Below, piece after piece: positions 4,750-20,864 of a DNA stretch of 28,946 bases. Every line of letters begins with the position of its first letter. Within the stretch, counting starts at the first letter, position 1. The stretch spans positions 1-28,946 of the IMG/VR virus record IMGVR_UViG_3300025108_000273; one strand, 5' to 3'. Position numbers and translations under genes: made by a program. This DNA comes from a virus. The notes beneath the pieces are model-generated. The model had not been told where the DNA came from. It saw nothing but the letters and a program-made list of their open reading frames with translations, and searched no databases.

Positions 4750-5534
4750 ATAGAGTTCAAGAAAACAACTTAATGCCGTTTGAACAACAAAAGAAAGATG
4801 CTCTTGATGATAGAAAAACATCTAGACCAGATGATGTTGATGAAGTTGGTATTAGCCGAGAGTGGTGGATGGTTGACTTTAGGTCACAATGGCTTACTGA
4901 GTATCCCAAAACTGAAGAGACCATGAGCGAAGAACAATGGAAGACTTGGTACAAAAACTTTTCGGTCTTTACTAGACAAGATATTGATTATGCTTTTAAC
5001 GAAGTGAGGAAGACACCAAGAGATTACGGTGGTCCTAATTTGTCGCATCTTTACGACAAGCTTATGCAAACTGGTCAAAAGAGAATCAGAATGGATGATG
5101 TGACAAAGGTTACATCTGCTTGTGAAGATAAAACTGTAGGCCAATGTGTTTTCGGTGACCCCTTTTGGCAACTTAATCGATATGGTAAACATGATTTTAA
5201 AATGATGTGCATCATGGAGTGTTCTAAGCATGAAGATTCTTATGCTCAAGCTCATCATATGAAAGATAAGCCCGAACCAAAAACAAAAGGTGAATGGTTT
5301 GTTTTAGTTGCAGATTACATGAGTAATGATGATGTGACAAAAATTGCTGATACAGATAGAACTTCTAGAGATAGAAAGTTTGAAACATATCAATTCTCAG
5401 AATTATTTCCCGATGGAAATATCAAAGAAGTTCTTGCAAGTTATTCTCTAAGTCCAGACTTAGCTTTTAATGAACAATGTATAGCTATTAGTCAGCTACC
5501 AAAACAAAAAAACATTGCTGGGGACATTCTCTAA
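4737..5534 (+). CDS. Hypothetical protein, possibly replication-loader-like
   Basis: The product is 265 aa. Residues about 45-110 (VDFRSQWLTEYPK, then W68 and W71, QDIDYAFNEVRK and GPNLSHLYDKL) follow the general pattern of the N-terminal helical domain of phage replication loader proteins: an aromatic start, a central W, an 'I..A' helix, then a Pro-anchored final helix. The similarity is a loose impression, not a motif match. The C-terminal two thirds include four Cys (C129, C137, C158, C162) and an HH at 173-174 that might bind metal. It is the last and largest gene of the operon, and AAGGTG precedes the start. The extended -10 and small RNA begin right after the stop. Confidence 0.55.
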   Translation: MDKIDRVQENNLMPFEQQKKDALDDRKTSRPDDVDEVGISREWWMVDFRSQWLTEYPKTEETMSEEQWKTWYKNFSVFTRQDIDYAFNEVRKTPRDYGGPNLSHLYDKLMQTGQKRIRMDDVTKVTSACEDKTVGQCVFGDPFWQLNRYGKHDFKMMCIMECSKHEDSYAQAHHMKDKPEPKTKGEWFVLVADYMSNDDVTKIADTDRTSRDRKFETYQFSELFPDGNIKEVLASYSLSPDLAFNEQCIAISQLPKQKNIAGDIL

Positions 5535-5551
5535 AGTCGGGATTTTTAGAA

Positions 5552-5560
5552 TGTTATAAT
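5552..5560 (+). promoter_or_regulatory. Extended -10 promoter TGTTATAAT for the small RNA
   Basis: TG-T-TATAAT is an extended -10 with a perfect hexamer (5555-5560) and no strong -35. It begins 18 bp after the stop codon of the preceding gene. The predicted start, near 5561-5567, coincides with the first base pairs of the folded RNA downstream. Confidence 0.5.
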
Positions 5561-5653
5561 GGGTATGTCGGCTTCCCGTGAAGTGGAAACACTTCGAGCT
5601 GACTGCCCTCCCATCAACAGCTTTGTCTTATGGCAGAGCTGTATTTTTTTTTT
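5561..5653 (+). ncRNA. Small structured RNA, about 90 nt
   Basis: Between an extended -10 promoter and a strong terminator lies a sequence with a nearly continuous stem: GGGTA (5561-5565) pairs with TGCCC (5604-5608), and GTCGGCT (5567-5573) with AGCTGAC (5597-5603), leaving a one-base bulge. Inside, GAAGTG (5580-5585) and CACTTC (5590-5595) form a perfect hairpin capped by a GAAA (GNRA-type) tetraloop, with TCCCGT as an internal loop. The terminator hairpin follows after CTCCCATCAA. There is no open frame of note. It does not match a hammerhead core (no CUGAUGA). It could be a regulatory RNA, or a structured 3' UTR of the preceding gene. Confidence 0.6.
5618..5653 (+). terminator. Strong rho-independent terminator
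   Basis: CAGCTTTG (5618-5625) pairs with CAGAGCTG (5634-5641) through eight pairs (one G-U) around an 8-nt loop, followed by TA and ten consecutive T. It ends the preceding operon and the small RNA, and isolates the promoter at 5662. Confidence 0.85.
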
Positions 5654-5661
5654 AAATAAGC

Positions 5662-5690
5662 TTGACATCGAAATACTATTTCCATAAGAT
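5662..5690 (+). promoter_or_regulatory. Strong sigma70 promoter of the large RNA
   Basis: TTGACA (5662-5667), a 17-bp spacer, then TAAGAT (5685-5690) predicts a start near 5697. It begins 8 bp after the terminator U-tract, so it is an independent unit. No start codon with a ribosome binding site follows for over 400 bp, consistent with a promoter for a non-coding RNA. Confidence 0.7.
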
Positions 5691-5696
5691 TATATA

Positions 5697-6092
5697 TACA
5701 AGAGAAAAAACAATTAAATAAAGCTAATCGGCGGTCTTAAAGTATGAGCCATAAAACGGAAAGCTTGAATACTTAGGGTGGGTAGCCCAAAAAGGTCAAG
5801 TAAGTACTAATTAAAAATCCTACAATAAGGGCAAAATCGCTGACTTTTCAACAAAACAGCATAAGAACTATTTCGATGTGTCATCGGTAGGGAAAGTAAG
5901 TATTGCACTGACTTTGCGTTGTTGAAGAGTCGTTTGTCTAAAGAAAATATTAGGGGGGTGGCCGTTTAAAATTGTAGCGTTGCATAGGGAGCAATTGATA
6001 AAAAAGACTTAGGTCTCGACCCTTGTAAGTCACCGAAGTGCATTTAATTGTTTAAAATTAGATTCGGCCCAGTAGACATGCTGGGCTGTTTC
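5697..6092 (+). ncRNA. Large structured non-coding RNA candidate, about 395 nt
   Basis: The region has its own promoter and terminator and no credible gene. A 12-bp perfect helix joins its ends: AAACAATTAAAT (5708-5719) with ATTTAATTGTTT (6042-6053), 322 nt apart. Inside, GACTTTTCAAC (5842-5852) pairs with GTTGAAGAGTC (5921-5931) through 11 pairs with one G-U. Between these arms CGATG/CATCG (5874-5886) forms a hairpin, and AATTG/CAATT (about 5970-5996) and AGAC/GTCT (6005-6016) add others. TCGG (5728-5731) may pair with CCGA (6033-6036) next to the closing helix. It lacks tmRNA, RNase P and group I intron signatures that I looked for. Position just ahead of the packaging genes is notable. It could also be a long 5' leader of the gene at 6123. 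Confidence 0.6.
6065..6092 (+). terminator. Probable terminator at the 3' end of the large RNA
   Basis: CGGCCCAG (6065-6072) pairs with CTGGGCTG (6081-6088), eight pairs with one G-U and an 8-nt loop, followed by the modest tail TTTCT. The weak U-tract suggests partial readthrough into the gene at 6123, which has no other visible promoter. Confidence 0.55.
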
Positions 6093-6122
6093 TATAAGGA
6101 ATAAATTTATAAAAGGTGAAAA

Positions 6123-6785
6123 ATGTTAGAAGAAAATAATAAACTATATACGGAATGTGCAAAATGTGGATTACCGCTTGAATCAAACAATCAAGGTGCG
6201 CTAGATATCATGTATAACGGTGGTTATGGTGATTTTGTAGATAATTATGATAATGAAGAACTTTACTTTCGTCTATGTCATAAACACTCACATCAGTTTG
6301 CGTATTGGCTCAACAATGAGAATGCTTTAACTAAATATCATGGTCATGCTCATAATGGTTCCGAAAAGGGATTTTGGTATGGACACATTGGTTGGGACCA
6401 GTACACATGGTTATCGCATCTCAATATGTTTTTAATGCACTTCGTATTCGACGGGTTTAAATTCGCACGTCTAAATTTTGTGAGAAATGTCAAAAATAGA
6501 ATAAACTGGTGCCGTGAAGACATAAACGATTCATCTTCTCCAATACTATGGAAAACTGTATTTCGTAATTTATTTTTCCTTACCAATGTATATCGAGGTT
6601 TCTTTGTAGGTCTTTATAGAAAATTAAGCAGACGTAGATTTCTAAAAGCTAAAGCATTATATCGTAGTAAAAATTCGCTTTCTGGCGAATTATGGGACAA
6701 AGCCGTAAAAGGTGAATTTTCAGACTCCGAAAAAGCTTTGCTCATTAATATTGGTTCTGTATTAAAAGAACAAGAAGAGGAATAA
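6123..6785 (+). CDS. Phage zinc-ribbon protein upstream of terminase
   Basis: The product is 220 aa. The N-terminal domain has CAKC (C12, C15), a conserved-looking GGYGDF at 33-38, and LCHKHSH (C52, H53, H55), a Cys4/His-type zinc site of a kind found in small phage and actinobacterial hypothetical proteins. A His-rich patch (YHGHAH, 72-77) and aromatic segment follow. The C-terminal half is helical and basic (KLSRRRFLKAKALYR). AAGGTG precedes the ATG. It occupies the slot where a small terminase subunit would normally sit, directly before the large subunit, but its sequence does not look like a typical HTH-type small subunit. Its role is unknown. Confidence 0.65.
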   Translation: MLEENNKLYTECAKCGLPLESNNQGALDIMYNGGYGDFVDNYDNEELYFRLCHKHSHQFAYWLNNENALTKYHGHAHNGSEKGFWYGHIGWDQYTWLSHLNMFLMHFVFDGFKFARLNFVRNVKNRINWCREDINDSSSPILWKTVFRNLFFLTNVYRGFFVGLYRKLSRRRFLKAKALYRSKNSLSGELWDKAVKGEFSDSEKALLINIGSVLKEQEEE

Positions 6786-6816: not shown

Positions 6817-8079
6817 ATGCCTAAAGATATATTAGAACCAGTTGGTGAGGCAAAGAAGAGGGTATTTGATATAAAGTTTCCTCCTTTGCATGACGCACAA
6901 AAAGAAGTACATGATAGCCCAGCTAGGTGGAAAATTCTTTGTGCTGGGAGAAGGTTCGGTAAATCTAGATTAGGCGTGCAAATGTGCATGGAGGTAGCTC
7001 TTAGAGGTGGTAGAGCGTGGTGGGTCGCACCTACCTTTGCAATTTCAAGAGTTGGTTGGAGAGACATTCAAGCAGCAGCAGCCTCATTCCCAAAAGAAAT
7101 GGGCGTAAACATCAAAGTTGGTGATATGCAGGTAGATTTTGGCAATGGTGGTTTTATCGGTGTTCGTTCTGCTGACAACCCACAAAGACTTCGTGGAGAA
7201 GGTCTTGACTTTCTTGTTATGGATGAGGCCGCTTTCGTTAAAGAAGAGACATGGACTGAAGTACTTAGGCCTACTCTTACTGAAAGAAAAGGTTCTGCAT
7301 TATTCATTAGTACTCCTAAAGGAATGGATAACTGGTTTTACAGATTATTTGAAAGGGCAAGTCAAGGTGGAGACTGGCAGAGATTTCAATTCCCATCTAC
7401 TTCAAATCCATTAGTTGAAGAATCAGAAGTACAAGCAGCCAAACAAGAAATAGGTTCTTTAGTCTTTGCACAAGAATATATGGCACAATTCATATCTGAA
7501 GGCTCTCAGATGTTCAAACAAGACTGGTTTAGATATTATCACGAAGGTGTAGGACAAGTTCATGTTGATGGTGAAACCTATGATTTAAACGATTTAGTGA
7601 AGTTTGGTACTGTTGACTTGGCAACTTCTACCAAAGAATCTGCTGACTATACAGTTATTGGTAGTTTTGGCCTTCATCAACCAACTAAAAAGCTTTTTAT
7701 TTTAGATATGCACATAGAAAGAATGGAAGCACCAGACATAATTCCAGCAATAAAGAGACAACTCATCAAACATAATCTTGAATGGGTAGGAATAGAGCGT
7801 GCTGGTTTCCAATTAGCCTTAGTTCAGTTTGCAAGAAGAGAGGGATTACCAGTTTTAGAATTAAGAGCTGATAGAGACAAGCGTCAAAGAGCCCTTCCTT
7901 TATCTGCTAAGATGGAAGCAGGATTAGTTTATCTTCCTAAGAATGAAGAGTACTCTTGGGTCGCCGACGTGGAGCGTGAATTACTGACGTTTCCAGTAGG
8001 TGCTCATGACGACATAGTCGACTGTTTATCCTATGCAGTAGTACAAGAACGACAACAAAGGAAATGGGAAGCTTATTAA
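6817..8079 (+). CDS. terL: Terminase large subunit
   Basis: The product is 420 aa, a normal length for this family. It is the ATP-driven motor and nuclease that packages DNA through the portal. The ATPase domain shows Walker A CAGRRFGKS (42-50), Walker B LVMDEA (133-138, with the catalytic Glu at 137) and the coupling motif STP (165-167). The RNase H-like nuclease domain has D267 (GTVDLATS), E327 (VGIERAGF) and D398/D399 (AHDDIVD), the expected acidic triad. The start codon has no Shine-Dalgarno but sits 7 nt after an extended -10, so the mRNA may be leaderless. It ends in a TAATG overlap with the portal gene. No typical small subunit lies next to it. Confidence 0.95.
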   Translation: MPKDILEPVGEAKKRVFDIKFPPLHDAQKEVHDSPARWKILCAGRRFGKSRLGVQMCMEVALRGGRAWWVAPTFAISRVGWRDIQAAAASFPKEMGVNIKVGDMQVDFGNGGFIGVRSADNPQRLRGEGLDFLVMDEAAFVKEETWTEVLRPTLTERKGSALFISTPKGMDNWFYRLFERASQGGDWQRFQFPSTSNPLVEESEVQAAKQEIGSLVFAQEYMAQFISEGSQMFKQDWFRYYHEGVGQVHVDGETYDLNDLVKFGTVDLATSTKESADYTVIGSFGLHQPTKKLFILDMHIERMEAPDIIPAIKRQLIKHNLEWVGIERAGFQLALVQFARREGLPVLELRADRDKRQRALPLSAKMEAGLVYLPKNEEYSWVADVERELLTFPVGAHDDIVDCLSYAVVQERQQRKWEAY

Positions 8080-10619
8080 TGGCTGAAGAAAAGAAAAGTT
8101 TTTATAGAAGAACCGTAGAGTATTTACAAGCTCCTTCGGAAAGACAAGTTAAAGGTTTTAATTATAACCAGAGTACAAATTCATCTCTGGATTCTTCTGT
8201 ATTCGGATATAACACAACATCTGGTTCCATACCTCAAAAATTACTTGAGGATATTGGAGAAGGCACAGGAAACTCAGCTGTAGTTGCATGTCTTAATGTT
8301 TTAGCAACTTCATATGCAGAACCACAACTTAAAATTTATAAAAAAGAAGCAGAGGGACCAAATGAACTTATATCACATCCAGTAGAACAATTACTACAAA
8401 GGCCTAATCCTTTTACTTCTGGTTCATTACTTTCACACTATATTGTTACAGCAATCAACGCTAGTGGTGATGCTTATCTTTTAAAAGTCAGAAACTCATC
8501 TGGAAGAGTTATACAACTTATTCCAATGATGCCTAACCGAGTAACACCAAGAGGTAATGAAGATGAATTAATTACTCACTATGAGTACTACGGAACATCT
8601 AAAACAATGGGTGAGTTTGTAGTTATCAAAAAAGATGATTTAATCCACATCCGACAAGGAATAGACCCAAATAATCACAGAAAAGGATTTGCCCCACTCA
8701 AATCAGTTCTTCGTGAATTACTTGGCGATGAAGCAGCAGGACAATACGCTACTGCTTTACTACACAATATGGCCGTACCTGGCGTTATCTTAAGTCCAAA
8801 AGATGACACAGCTGGTGGACCATCAAGAGAAGAAGCTGAAGGCATAGCTAAAATGTATAAATCTAAATTTGGTGGAGCCAATAGAGGAGCACCAATGGTT
8901 CTTACAGGAGCTATGGATGTTAAAACAGTTTCTTTCTCACCAGACCAAATGGACCTTAAAGAATTAAGAAGACTTCCAGAAGAGCGAGTATCTGCTGTTC
9001 TAGGTGTCCCAGCTATTCTTGCAGGACTAGGAGCAGGTCTAGATGCAGCAACTTATAACAATACAAAAGAATTAAGAGAGTTCTTTACCGAACAAAAACT
9101 TATTCCTTTATGGAAAACAGTTGCTAATGAGCTAACACATCAATTACTACTTGAAGATTTCACTAACGATGTCTCTAACTATTGTGCTTACGACTTAAAC
9201 GAAGTAAGAGCATTAGCTTCAGATAAAAACGATACTTTCAAAAGAGTCAACATGGGTGTTGCTGGAGGTTGGGTAACAATCGCAGAAGCACGAAAAGCTG
9301 CACAATTAGAAAGTGACGAAACACATGATGTTTACTTAAGACCATTAAACATGGTTGCAGTACCAATAGCTCAAGGTGACCAACCTTACCAGATACAAGA
9401 ACAACAAGATTCTGATAAAAGTATTTCAACAAAAGATACTTTATCTTCAGTAGATTATGGTGTCGAATCTGAAAGACAACCACTTATCGTTATGACAGAC
9501 GAAGCTAAGCATGATGAAAAATATGTTGCTGAGATGCCAAATGGTGCTTGGTGTGTATTGAATCACAATGATAATAAACCAATAAAATGTTTTGAAACAG
9601 AGGCAGAAGCAGAGGCGCACTTAGAAAGTATGAAGAAAGACTTCAAAGCGGCTTCAATATCTGCTAAAGTTAAAAAAACGTTACAAAAAAAGGTAAAAGA
9701 CCATAATGCAAAAAATCCAAAATATAGAGCAAGTTATGGAATGTTGGCAGCTGTCTTCAGACGAGGTGTCGGTGCCTATAGAACTAACCCAGCTTCAGTG
9801 CGAGGTAATGTCACAGGTGCAACCCAGTGGGGAATAGCTAGAGTCAACGCCTTTCTTAAAGGATTAAAAGGTAGATTTCCAAGAACAGCTTTTGACCAAG
9901 ACTTACTTCCAAGTGGTCATCCATTAAGTTCAAAAAAATCAGCTAAAGCTGCATCAGTAAAAACTGGTGACACTGTTAGCTGGTCAATCAATAAAGACCC
10001 AGACCCACCTTCAACAGTGCATGGCGTAGTTACTTCTGTCAATAGTGAAAAGAAAGAAGCAACTATGATGGTTTGGGCCATTATGGAAGATGGTTCACAT
10101 AAAAAAACAGATAGAAGCGTTAAGCAACCTATTTCAAAACTAAAAAAAATAAAAGACTGGCGAAAAGAGTCTAAAGCTAAAGATGATGTTACCAACTTTC
10201 CATCCTCTGGTGATAATCAAAAAGTTAGTTTGACTAACTCAAAATTTAAACAATTCCCAGACTATAAATATGCAAAAGACTTAAAAGAAAATTATCCAAC
10301 GATATGGAGAAGAGCTGGTAACGGAGGAAATCCACCTACTTCATTTACGGGTAATGACGCTTTTAGGAATTGGACTAAGTACAAATCTGGAGACAGAAGT
10401 GGCTCTGTATTGTCTTGGGTCAAAAGAAGAGAACGTTTCATGAACAGACATCAAAATAATAATCGTCTTAATGGCGCTATTGCTGTCTTGAAATGGGGCG
10501 GAGTCACAAACGGTGGCGTCTCTCAAATGAAGAAACTTATTAACGAACAGAAGAAAAAAGTTGATGCTCGTAAGAAAAAAGCTGAGTTTATCGTTGCAGA
10601 AAAAACAGGCAAAAAATAA
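8079..10619 (+). CDS. Portal protein with long multidomain C-terminal extension
   Basis: The product is 846 aa, about twice the usual HK97-type portal. Residues about 40-420 are the portal (ISHPVEQLLQRPNPF, then GFAPLKSVLRELLGD, LRRLPEERVSAVLGVPA and the clip/stem region), forming the dodecameric DNA channel. The extension reads as at least four modules: a short WCVLN...CFETEAEAEAHL motif (about 480-520); a segment with KNPKYRASYGMLAAVFRRG and TQWGIARVNAFLKGL ending DLLPSGHPL (about 530-618), resembling DUF5824-type domains; a Tudor/SH3-like unit (GDTVSW to KQPISKL, about 630-690); and a final module with YPTIWRRAGN and AIAVLKWGG (about 735-825). The ATG at 8079 overlaps the terL stop; a start at 8064 is less likely. 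The domain names are from memory. Confidence 0.88.
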   Translation: MAEEKKSFYRRTVEYLQAPSERQVKGFNYNQSTNSSLDSSVFGYNTTSGSIPQKLLEDIGEGTGNSAVVACLNVLATSYAEPQLKIYKKEAEGPNELISHPVEQLLQRPNPFTSGSLLSHYIVTAINASGDAYLLKVRNSSGRVIQLIPMMPNRVTPRGNEDELITHYEYYGTSKTMGEFVVIKKDDLIHIRQGIDPNNHRKGFAPLKSVLRELLGDEAAGQYATALLHNMAVPGVILSPKDDTAGGPSREEAEGIAKMYKSKFGGANRGAPMVLTGAMDVKTVSFSPDQMDLKELRRLPEERVSAVLGVPAILAGLGAGLDAATYNNTKELREFFTEQKLIPLWKTVANELTHQLLLEDFTNDVSNYCAYDLNEVRALASDKNDTFKRVNMGVAGGWVTIAEARKAAQLESDETHDVYLRPLNMVAVPIAQGDQPYQIQEQQDSDKSISTKDTLSSVDYGVESERQPLIVMTDEAKHDEKYVAEMPNGAWCVLNHNDNKPIKCFETEAEAEAHLESMKKDFKAASISAKVKKTLQKKVKDHNAKNPKYRASYGMLAAVFRRGVGAYRTNPASVRGNVTGATQWGIARVNAFLKGLKGRFPRTAFDQDLLPSGHPLSSKKSAKAASVKTGDTVSWSINKDPDPPSTVHGVVTSVNSEKKEATMMVWAIMEDGSHKKTDRSVKQPISKLKKIKDWRKESKAKDDVTNFPSSGDNQKVSLTNSKFKQFPDYKYAKDLKENYPTIWRRAGNGGNPPTSFTGNDAFRNWTKYKSGDRSGSVLSWVKRRERFMNRHQNNNRLNGAIAVLKWGGVTNGGVSQMKKLINEQKKKVDARKKKAEFIVAEKTGKK

Positions 10620-17845: not shown

Positions 17846-18187
17846 GTGCCAAACATTACAACATCATTATTAAACGAAAGCGTTACTATCCAGAGACTCT
17901 CTGGTTCTTCTGTTGATGACAGAGGATTATCAACTGCAACGTTTGCTGACGTATCAACAACACAAGCTAGAATTGTTAGAAATAATTCTGTATCAGAAGC
18001 AAGAGGCACATCTAGAGTTTCAGATAACACGGAATTTGCAGTAATAGTACAAGGTAATGTTGATGTCACAGTTAAAGACCGAATCAAAGTTGGTTCTGAT
18101 TATTATGAAATAGAATCTGTAAATGATACAAAAGATAGATTTGGAAATACTTTTTATAAAGAAATAAGAATGCAGTCTGGTTTCTAA
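17846..18187 (+). CDS. Head-tail closure / adaptor protein
   Basis: The product is 113 aa. It is a small beta-rich protein with the head-tail joining family pattern: SVTIQRLSGSSVDDRG, then a strand-loop part, VTVKDRIKVGSDYYEIESVNDT and RFGNTFYKEIRMQ. In HK97/SPP1-type phages this protein closes the connector under the portal and gates DNA exit. It uses a GTG start with no Shine-Dalgarno but a -10 six bases upstream. It is the first gene of the resumed morphogenesis operon and ends in a TAATG overlap with the next gene. Confidence 0.75.
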   Translation: MPNITTSLLNESVTIQRLSGSSVDDRGLSTATFADVSTTQARIVRNNSVSEARGTSRVSDNTEFAVIVQGNVDVTVKDRIKVGSDYYEIESVNDTKDRFGNTFYKEIRMQSGF

Positions 18188-19601: not shown

Positions 19602-19894
19602 TGAAAAACGTAAAGATAAATCCGATGCTTAAGGGCGTCGATTTAGCAAGAGATGAGAAACTTGATGTTTTCTTTTCCCATACTGATTGGGTAGAAGTTA
19701 ACGAAGAAGAGTGGAAACGTCTTAAAGAGATGACGCACAAGTTAGGAGAAATGAAAGTTTCCCTTCTTGTCGCAGATGGTGAGGACTGGGGACAAATAAA
19801 AGAAGTAGTTTCTACTAAAGAGGTAGAGCCTATTGATGATGAGATGGAAGAAGTTATCTTTTGGGAAGAAGACGAAGTAGCAGAAGAAGAGTGA
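19601..19894 (+). CDS. 97-aa acidic hypothetical protein
   Basis: The product is not recognised. The first half has alternating strand/helix segments (KLDVFFSHTDWVEVNEEEWKRL). The last 30 residues are very acidic (EEVIFWEEDEVAEEE). ACGGAG precedes the ATG, which overlaps the preceding stop. Its place between tail terminator and tail tube suggests a minor tail or assembly role. Confidence 0.65.
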   Translation: MKNVKINPMLKGVDLARDEKLDVFFSHTDWVEVNEEEWKRLKEMTHKLGEMKVSLLVADGEDWGQIKEVVSTKEVEPIDDEMEEVIFWEEDEVAEEE

Positions 19895-19926
19895 CAAGCT
19901 CTTCCGTTTAAAAGTAGGAGAACATA

Positions 19927-20508
19927 ATGGCTAAAAGTATTAGCGAGGTCATGTTAGGAACTGGTGTTTTGTACATAGGTGACGAAGCAACAGCATTCCC
20001 AGCTGACCCAACAACAGCACCATCTGGTTCTGACTGGACAGATATTGGTTATTCTGAAAGTGGTTGGACTCTTGACTATGACAAAACATTCGAAGATGTC
20101 ATGGTTGCAGAAGAGATTGACCCAATTTTCACAATCAAAACTGCCCAAGAAGTTAGAATCTCTGGTGAGCTTGCTCAAGTTTCTTTAGCAAATCTAAAAG
20201 AAGCTATGGGTGGCGGAACAGTAACAACTGGAACACCATCGACTGGATTTTCAGAGTTAAAACCTCCTTCATCAGATTCTTTTTTAGAAAAGTCTTTGAT
20301 GTTGAGGATTGATGCTCCAGATTCAACACTCGGCGGAACTCTTAAAAAAAGAGACGTTTTAGTTCCTAGAGCAGTCAATGTCGGAGCTTTCTCAATGACT
20401 CACGCAAAAGCACCTCAAAAAGTGTTAGTAGCAGTTGAGTACAAAGTGTTAAAGCCAGGCAGCGGTGCTCAGTTCAGCGAATTATTTAAAATAATCGACG
20501 AAGTTTAG
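19927..20508 (+). CDS. Major tail protein (tail tube)
   Basis: The product is 193 aa. The N-terminal GTGVLYIGDEA, then WTDIGYSESGWTL and the DVMVAEEIDPI stretch, followed by QEVRISGELAQVSLANLKEAMG, match the tail-tube monomer pattern of siphophages (Trp-x-x-Ile-Gly, strand, helix with LxxxxG). The rest is beta-rich. It should polymerise in hexameric rings around the tape measure. TAGGAG precedes the ATG. A hairpin overlaps its stop codon. Confidence 0.82.
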   Translation: MAKSISEVMLGTGVLYIGDEATAFPADPTTAPSGSDWTDIGYSESGWTLDYDKTFEDVMVAEEIDPIFTIKTAQEVRISGELAQVSLANLKEAMGGGTVTTGTPSTGFSELKPPSSDSFLEKSLMLRIDAPDSTLGGTLKKRDVLVPRAVNVGAFSMTHAKAPQKVLVAVEYKVLKPGSGAQFSELFKIIDEV

Positions 20509-20513
20509 TCGAT
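20494..20513 (+). other. Hairpin at the end of the tail tube gene
   Basis: ATCGAC (20494-20499) pairs with GTCGAT (20508-20513) around an 8-nt loop that contains part of the TAG stop codon. There is no U-tract. As with the hairpin after the capsid gene, it may stabilise mRNA or lower downstream expression. Confidence 0.4.
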
Positions 20514-20528
20514 AGATAGGAGGGCGTA

Positions 20529-20864
20529 ATGCCGAAATTTGATTTTGACGAAGCAGTCAAAGAGAATAAGAACGAACCCTTGGAGGTAGTGCTCAATAAA
20601 AGAGAATATCTTTTACCAGCACAGTTACCAGCAAGGGTAGTTCTAACACAAATAGCACTTATGGATGAGACTGGAGGACTCGGTACTAACGATATTCCAA
20701 CTTGGTTAGGTGCGCTTGTAGGTGAGGATAACTTACAACAAATGTTAGACGATGGAGCTACATGGGAACAACTAGAAGCAGTAACAACAAAACTTTTAGT
20801 ATTCTACAATGTTATTCCAGAAGAACAAGAAATAGAGACTGGAGACGAAGAAGCCCCAAAATAA
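20529..20864 (+). CDS. Tail assembly chaperone, first frame (gpG-like)
   Basis: The product is 111 aa. It is an acidic helical protein (LPARVVLTQIALMDE, then WLGALVGEDNLQQMLDDG and LLVFYNVIPEEQE) in the position of the phage lambda G chaperone between tail tube and tape measure. These chaperones coat the tape measure during tail assembly. AGGAGG precedes the start. Its stop codon is directly preceded by the slippery heptamer C-CCA-AAA in the right frame, so a fraction of ribosomes may slip back one base and make a longer G-T fusion of about 206 residues. Confidence 0.78.
   Translation: MPKFDFDEAVKENKNEPLEVVLNKREYLLPAQLPARVVLTQIALMDETGGLGTNDIPTWLGALVGEDNLQQMLDDGATWEQLEAVTTKLLVFYNVIPEEQEIETGDEEAPK
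20855..20861 (+). other. Programmed -1 frameshift site
   Basis: C CCA AAA, read in frame as GCC CCA AAA TAA, is a legitimate X-XXY-YYZ heptamer touching the stop codon. A -1 slip continues as CCC AAA ATA AAC ATG into the frame of the next gene. That frame has no Shine-Dalgarno before its own ATG, supporting frameshift expression. No strong downstream pseudoknot was seen. Confidence 0.65.

Follow-up and report, generated by a model that had tools for sequence, protein, structure and literature searches.

The 28,946-nt window examined in this study (the whole stretch analysed, positions 1 to 28,946 of IMG/VR record IMGVR_UViG_3300025108_000273, from an uncultivated virus) probably contains a self-contained non-coding RNA gene, with a predicted size of about 350-400 nt, that represents a new family and would act in trans in an accessory task of infection. 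Comparison of its homologues shows a conserved sequence with a predicted branched structure, closed by helix P1 and kept by compensatory changes, together with a long arm and A-rich unpaired segments that are likewise conserved (Table 1). The carriers of this RNA are uncultured, mostly marine viruses of microbes, and the window's own group consists of uncultivated tailed phages encoding TerL, portal, maturation protease, capsid, and tape-measure genes.

Table 1. Features of the window and related loci. Positions refer to the window unless a locus is named.
Feature	Position	Strand	Remarks
Structured RNA as proposed	5697..6092	+	conserved block from ~5706 in 17 other full-length loci and distant L066
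RNA promoter, TTGACA-N17-TAAGAT	5662..5690	+	10/12 consensus matches
Closing helix P1, 5' strand (AAACAATTAAAT)	5708..5719	+	pairs with 6042-6053, perfect 12 bp
Closing helix P1, 3' strand (ATTTAATTGTTT)	6042..6053	+	perfect complement of 5708-5719
Helix P2, 5' strand GGCGGTC	5730..5736	+	with 5960-5966; 3/7 pairs two-sided, 98.6% of cells paired
Covarying hairpin around near-invariant GGGTGGGTAGCCC	5763..5801	+	stem differs between loci
Long branched arm	5819..5954	+	inner helix 5841-5854 with 5919-5932; sub-hairpin 5868-5890
Small hairpin AGnC-TTnG-GnCT	6005..6016	+	middle pair seen as A-U, G-C, U-A
3' hairpin just past P1	6065..6088	+	terminator-like match; compensatory changes keep hairpin; T-run mostly absent in relatives
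220-aa ORF (context)	6123..6785	+	kept beside TerL in G001 too; 47% homologue, G001 19885-20610
Terminase large subunit, TerL (context)	6817..8079	+	phrog_2, E 2e-43
Small upstream RNA (candidate)	5546-5652; G001 18091-18183 (L108); L046 751-823; L024 3730-3780; others
ArdC-like anti-restriction protein, zincin-like domain	L108 8255-9175 (G001)		Pfam ArdcN 1.7e-08; phrog_7245 3.9e-14
Recurring promoter-like motif	L205 1229, 2990; L011 2372, 2542; L023 2019, 3781
Extra 5' hairpin	L011 2570-2690; L014 1385-1500; L017 3735-3850; L022 3735-3850

Distribution and conservation of the RNA

Fifty-eight viral contigs were found to encode a relative of the window's TerL, and 17 of these contain the full-length RNA besides the window, with TerL proteins 89-100% identical to that of the window. 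Three more contigs (L019-L021) contain the RNA in the same place, cut by the contig end. Wherever the contig reaches, the RNA sits between an ORF of 264-266 aa and an ORF of 217-234 aa that precedes TerL; in the window, the gap is flanked by an ORF ending at 5534 and the 220-aa ORF starting at 6123, for which searches of Pfam and PHROG found no family. No copy turned up in the relatives with 57-63% identical TerL, as far as their loci or whole records were retrieved; they include many fragments and four records of 34-48 kb. A motif scan picked up a single more distant homologue, L066 (122 bits and E 7e-36 in nhmmer, using a profile from which L066 had been left out), which lies on phage contig G001 and is 71% identical to the window RNA over aligned bases.

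Further searches returned little else. In six exact-pattern scans of viral contigs, L066 was the sole homologue beyond the window's clade, with the remaining matches at or near chance with the model; a pattern match in L106 was rejected because it lies inside coding sequence. A scan of a genome collection with one motif yielded 56 stretches, none of them matching the model convincingly, that were taken as chance (best 16.9 bits, the E-values being rough), and two whole bacterial genomes yielded one weak match (16.4 bits). Distant blastn searches against cultured phages, run with the RNA region and with L066, and against plasmids, run with L066, gave short chance-level matches alone. Twelve records retrieved through the G001-type TerL gave no matches; since the fetched loci start at most 5 kb upstream of TerL, most of the 12 do not probe the position that the RNA occupies in G001. 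Separately, L071 (7239-7255) and L080 (5500-5516) have GGGGTGGGTAGCCC in common within a longer similar stretch, which scores low with the RNA model and is possibly another element.

Compared to the window, the RNA of L008-L023 is 88-92% identical, while TerL is 80-83% identical in nucleotides and 57-63% at third codon positions. L005 and L007 are the exception (RNA 79%, TerL 88% identical to the window), mainly because an arm of their RNA has been replaced. The window listing contains no ORF of at least 60 aa between 5534 and 6123, and no open frame is shared along the homologues, in which the longest stop-free segments span 36-62 codons and fall in different frames and on different strands. 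The sequence-only reading had seen no credible gene in about 395 nt and had held that a conserved protein frame would speak against an RNA; the translated homologues agree with the former and gave no sign of the latter. The 5' end of the RNA probably lies about 7 nt past the -10 element, and the 3' end is uncertain.

Secondary structure and covariation

The helices and promoter originally described could be read directly from the window: the two P1 strands are perfect complements over 12 bp, the inner helix (5842-5852 with 5921-5931) forms 11 pairs including one G·U, and TTGACA-N17-TAAGAT is present at its assigned position. The best supported helices are P2, with the variants CGGTC/GGCCG, CTGTC/GGCAG, and TAGTC/GACTA, the hairpin around GGGTGGGTAGCCC, and the long arm. 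Stems of the GGGTGGGTAGCCC hairpin read CTTGA/TCAAG, CTTGG/CCAAG, CTAAA/TTTAG, and CTAGG/CCTTG across loci, with two-sided changes at five of six pairs in the model-fitted alignment and three of six in the sequence-only alignment; the core of the inner-helix arm has such changes at 6/7 and 3/7 pairs, respectively. Covariation in both long helices had been proposed as a check, and the inner helix does covary, but P1 is nearly invariant within the close clade. In L066, a largely different sequence can form P1.

Roughly half of the unpaired positions in the RNA are A, and the A-rich segments left unpaired hint at tertiary contacts. Conservation in L005 is higher at unpaired positions (82%) than at paired positions (68%), and the bases of a pseudoknot candidate (AAUUG/CAAUU) hardly vary. 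Much of the distal long arm has been replaced in L005 (3668-4022) and L007 (1630-1984) with pairing largely kept, despite a TerL close to that of the window.

In the sequence-only alignment (A2; 11 sequences, 92 pairs of the model structure), 96.5% of pair cells hold standard pairs and 24 of the 92 pairs change on both sides, compared to 31-48% paired cells and 2-6 two-sided pairs in controls where the partners were slid by 1-3 columns. RNAalifold predicted 99 pairs from a 12-sequence alignment, 29 of them with compensatory changes, and the model-fitted alignment of 16 sequences, which leans to the structure, gave 96.8% paired cells and 31 two-sided pairs. Because the relatedness of the sequences had to be allowed for, 300 alignments were simulated without structural constraint along a maximum-likelihood IQ-TREE tree from a consensus root, both the root and the rooting being approximate. 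The simulated alignments averaged 84.7% paired cells (maximum 90.0, observed 96.5), 12.1 two-sided pairs (maximum 22, observed 24), and 13.8 two-sided cells (maximum 28, observed 46), and none of the 300 reached the observed values.

Positions 5697-6092 have a minimum folding energy of -103.3 kcal/mol (z = -3.97), with none of 100 shuffles as low. The z-score is weaker in relatives (-2.41 in L066, -0.85 in L005), and folding energy was dropped as a criterion for the family because L005 is no more stable than its shuffles. Covariation across the aligned homologues is the stronger evidence for a structured RNA than predicted folding energy. By these alignments the RNA is of the ornate type, combining extensive covarying secondary structure with the lack of a protein frame.

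Promoter, 3' hairpin, and transcription

The RNA is probably transcribed during infection from a promoter of its own and would fold compactly. The window, L002, and L005 have a common TTGACA-N17-TAnGAT form upstream of the RNA, with TAGGAT and TATGAT as the -10 in L002 and L005 and a spacer that has otherwise diverged. A promoter-like TTG-N17-TAnnnT precedes the RNA in the loci examined, with lower scores in types beyond these three and weak matches (6-7/12) in the L009, L011, L014, and L023 types. The RNA of G001 is preceded by TTGACA-N17-CAATAT, the -10 of which fits the consensus at three of six bases.

A recurring promoter-like motif, TTG[AC]..AAA..ACGTC..TAnnnT, was observed upstream of both the RNA and another ORF, and it is duplicated in L011. 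A 52.8-kb relative has a similar TTGACA...ACGTC...TATGTT also upstream of another gene, and the motif possibly represents a phage-specific promoter class. Some loci additionally have a strong hairpin at the presumed 5' end of the RNA, with about -36 to -39 kcal/mol per stretch.

The hairpin past P1 that had been proposed as a terminator is present and covaries, but as a terminator it is weak: TTTCTAT follows it in the window, and most relatives lack a T-run. In the window's clade, transcription is therefore likely to read through, with the 220-aa gene and TerL co-transcribed.

A second, small candidate RNA lies just upstream of the large one. Its -10 is of the TATAAT type, and it comprises one hairpin that includes a GUCGGC strand and another that looks like a terminator (T9 in the window). 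Its linker CCUCCCAUC is invariant in 14 sequences, and six of the nine pairs of its 3' hairpin show two-sided changes. This small RNA keeps its place upstream of TerL in relatives with about 60% identical TerL as well, in which the large RNA was not found, and its CCUCCC resembles an anti-Shine-Dalgarno motif.

Relocation of the RNA in G001

G001 is a 71.8-kb phage contig with a TerL 68% identical to that of the window. It shares a collinear arrangement of portal, protease, capsid, and further genes with the window, and the 220-aa homologue stands beside TerL, with no such RNA ahead of these two genes. Instead, the RNA is found at about 9636-9976, approximately 10.7 kb upstream of TerL, with a 96-aa ORF that is itself preceded by the ArdC-like gene on its upstream side and opposite-strand ORFs downstream. 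Homologues of the two genes immediately upstream of the RNA occur in the accessory region of another phage from the wider group, whose TerL is about 60% identical, so that G001 is no obvious chimera. Given the position in G001, the promoter-like sequence of its own, and the opposite-strand genes behind it, the predicted RNA is probably a movable, self-contained RNA gene and more than a plain leader of the packaging operon, with the relocated copy known from one contig.

This arrangement bears on the alternative of a long cis-acting leader of the late operon, which would fold co-transcriptionally and control downstream elongation, termination, or translation. The position of the RNA in the window's clade fits a leader, as had been suggested: in the window and 17 other loci it follows a promoter-like sequence and precedes the first operon gene, about 30 nt separate it from the next start codon, and most of the 3' hairpins have no T-run. 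The arrangement in G001 does not fit, since the 220-aa gene and TerL manage there without such an RNA upstream and opposite-strand ORFs follow the RNA. Known put elements are far smaller and less elaborate, which also counts against a leader. The put RNA of HK022 acts in cis on early transcription (PMC9378689), and like the window RNA it is a phage RNA element downstream of a promoter; however, the window-type RNA is larger and in G001 is not directly followed by a same-strand operon. A leader is considered unlikely.

Even less probable, and very much so, is a packaging RNA like the phi29 pRNA or a scaffold for capsid or terminase assembly. Both the window RNA and pRNA are phage RNAs, and in the window's clade the RNA directly precedes the 220-aa gene and then TerL, near the packaging genes. 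In G001, however, the RNA is unlinked to TerL, no Rfam pRNA match was obtained, and the RNA was not found in relatives with about 60% identical TerL, including the 34-48 kb records, an absence that incomplete records weaken. A necessary link to packaging is not supported, given the 10.7-kb distance in G001 and the longer records without the RNA. A fixed role in packaging, or in leading the packaging operon, becomes less likely in view of the relocation and the patchy presence, while a cis role may still apply within the window's clade.

Comparison with known RNAs and possible functions

Searching the whole window with the Rfam 15 covariance models, which cover GOLLD, ROOL, OLE, pRNA, group I/II introns, and self-cleaving ribozymes among other families, gave no match at the gathering score. 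Only chance-level matches below gathering were obtained for 5500-6130 with E up to 5, and none for L066, in keeping with the initial statement that no known RNA could be matched. A self-splicing or self-cleaving element is highly improbable: the large conserved fold, the conserved unpaired core, and the changed location in G001 would suit an intron or ribozyme, but no Rfam family of either kind was matched and the RNA interrupts no gene in the setting of the window or G001.

GOLLD is a large structured phage RNA of unknown function, found in marine metagenomes among other sources; many examples exceed 800 nt and are located near tRNAs (PMC12286853). ROOL is a structured RNA of phages and prophages without a known protein partner (PMC12286853). 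The window RNA is likewise large, structured, phage-borne, and without a known protein partner; however, it is about 350-400 nt long, matches neither Rfam family, and is not part of a tRNA island, no tRNA genes having been found in the window, the G001 contig, or five other loci. Judged from these comparisons, it is like GOLLD and ROOL in kind and not a member of either, because it is shorter, not near tRNAs, and unmatched by their models. The proposal of a phage ornate RNA stands in that the RNA is large, structured, covarying, unmatched in Rfam, and equipped with a promoter of its own, but a necessary link to packaging is not supported. It is possible, though doubtful, that the RNA is a further ornate RNA with no sequence relationship to GOLLD and ROOL, folding or assembling without protein partners and serving as a mobile accessory gene in takeover or counter-defence.

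A role specifically in counter-defence, with the RNA serving as a decoy for a host defence system or inhibiting it, appears quite unlikely. The patchy presence of the RNA, its position one gene downstream of the ArdC-like protein in G001, and the wholesale arm replacement in L005 and L007 are consistent with such a role; however, no defence-related gene adjoins the RNA in the window, and neither a target nor mimicry was identified. The reading preferred here, a trans-acting RNA gene, would have the RNA act alone or as an RNA-protein particle, with a target task that is accessory during infection and is not packaging itself.

Large structured RNA families of phages are few, and their functions are open. 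A family of approximately 350 nt whose fold is defined and whose core is near-invariant, and for which nature provides a case of relocation, is compact enough for structural study in vitro, and its small size also suits deletion and complementation tests once a host is known. These findings indicate that viral metagenomes hold RNA genes that protein-centred annotation leaves blank.
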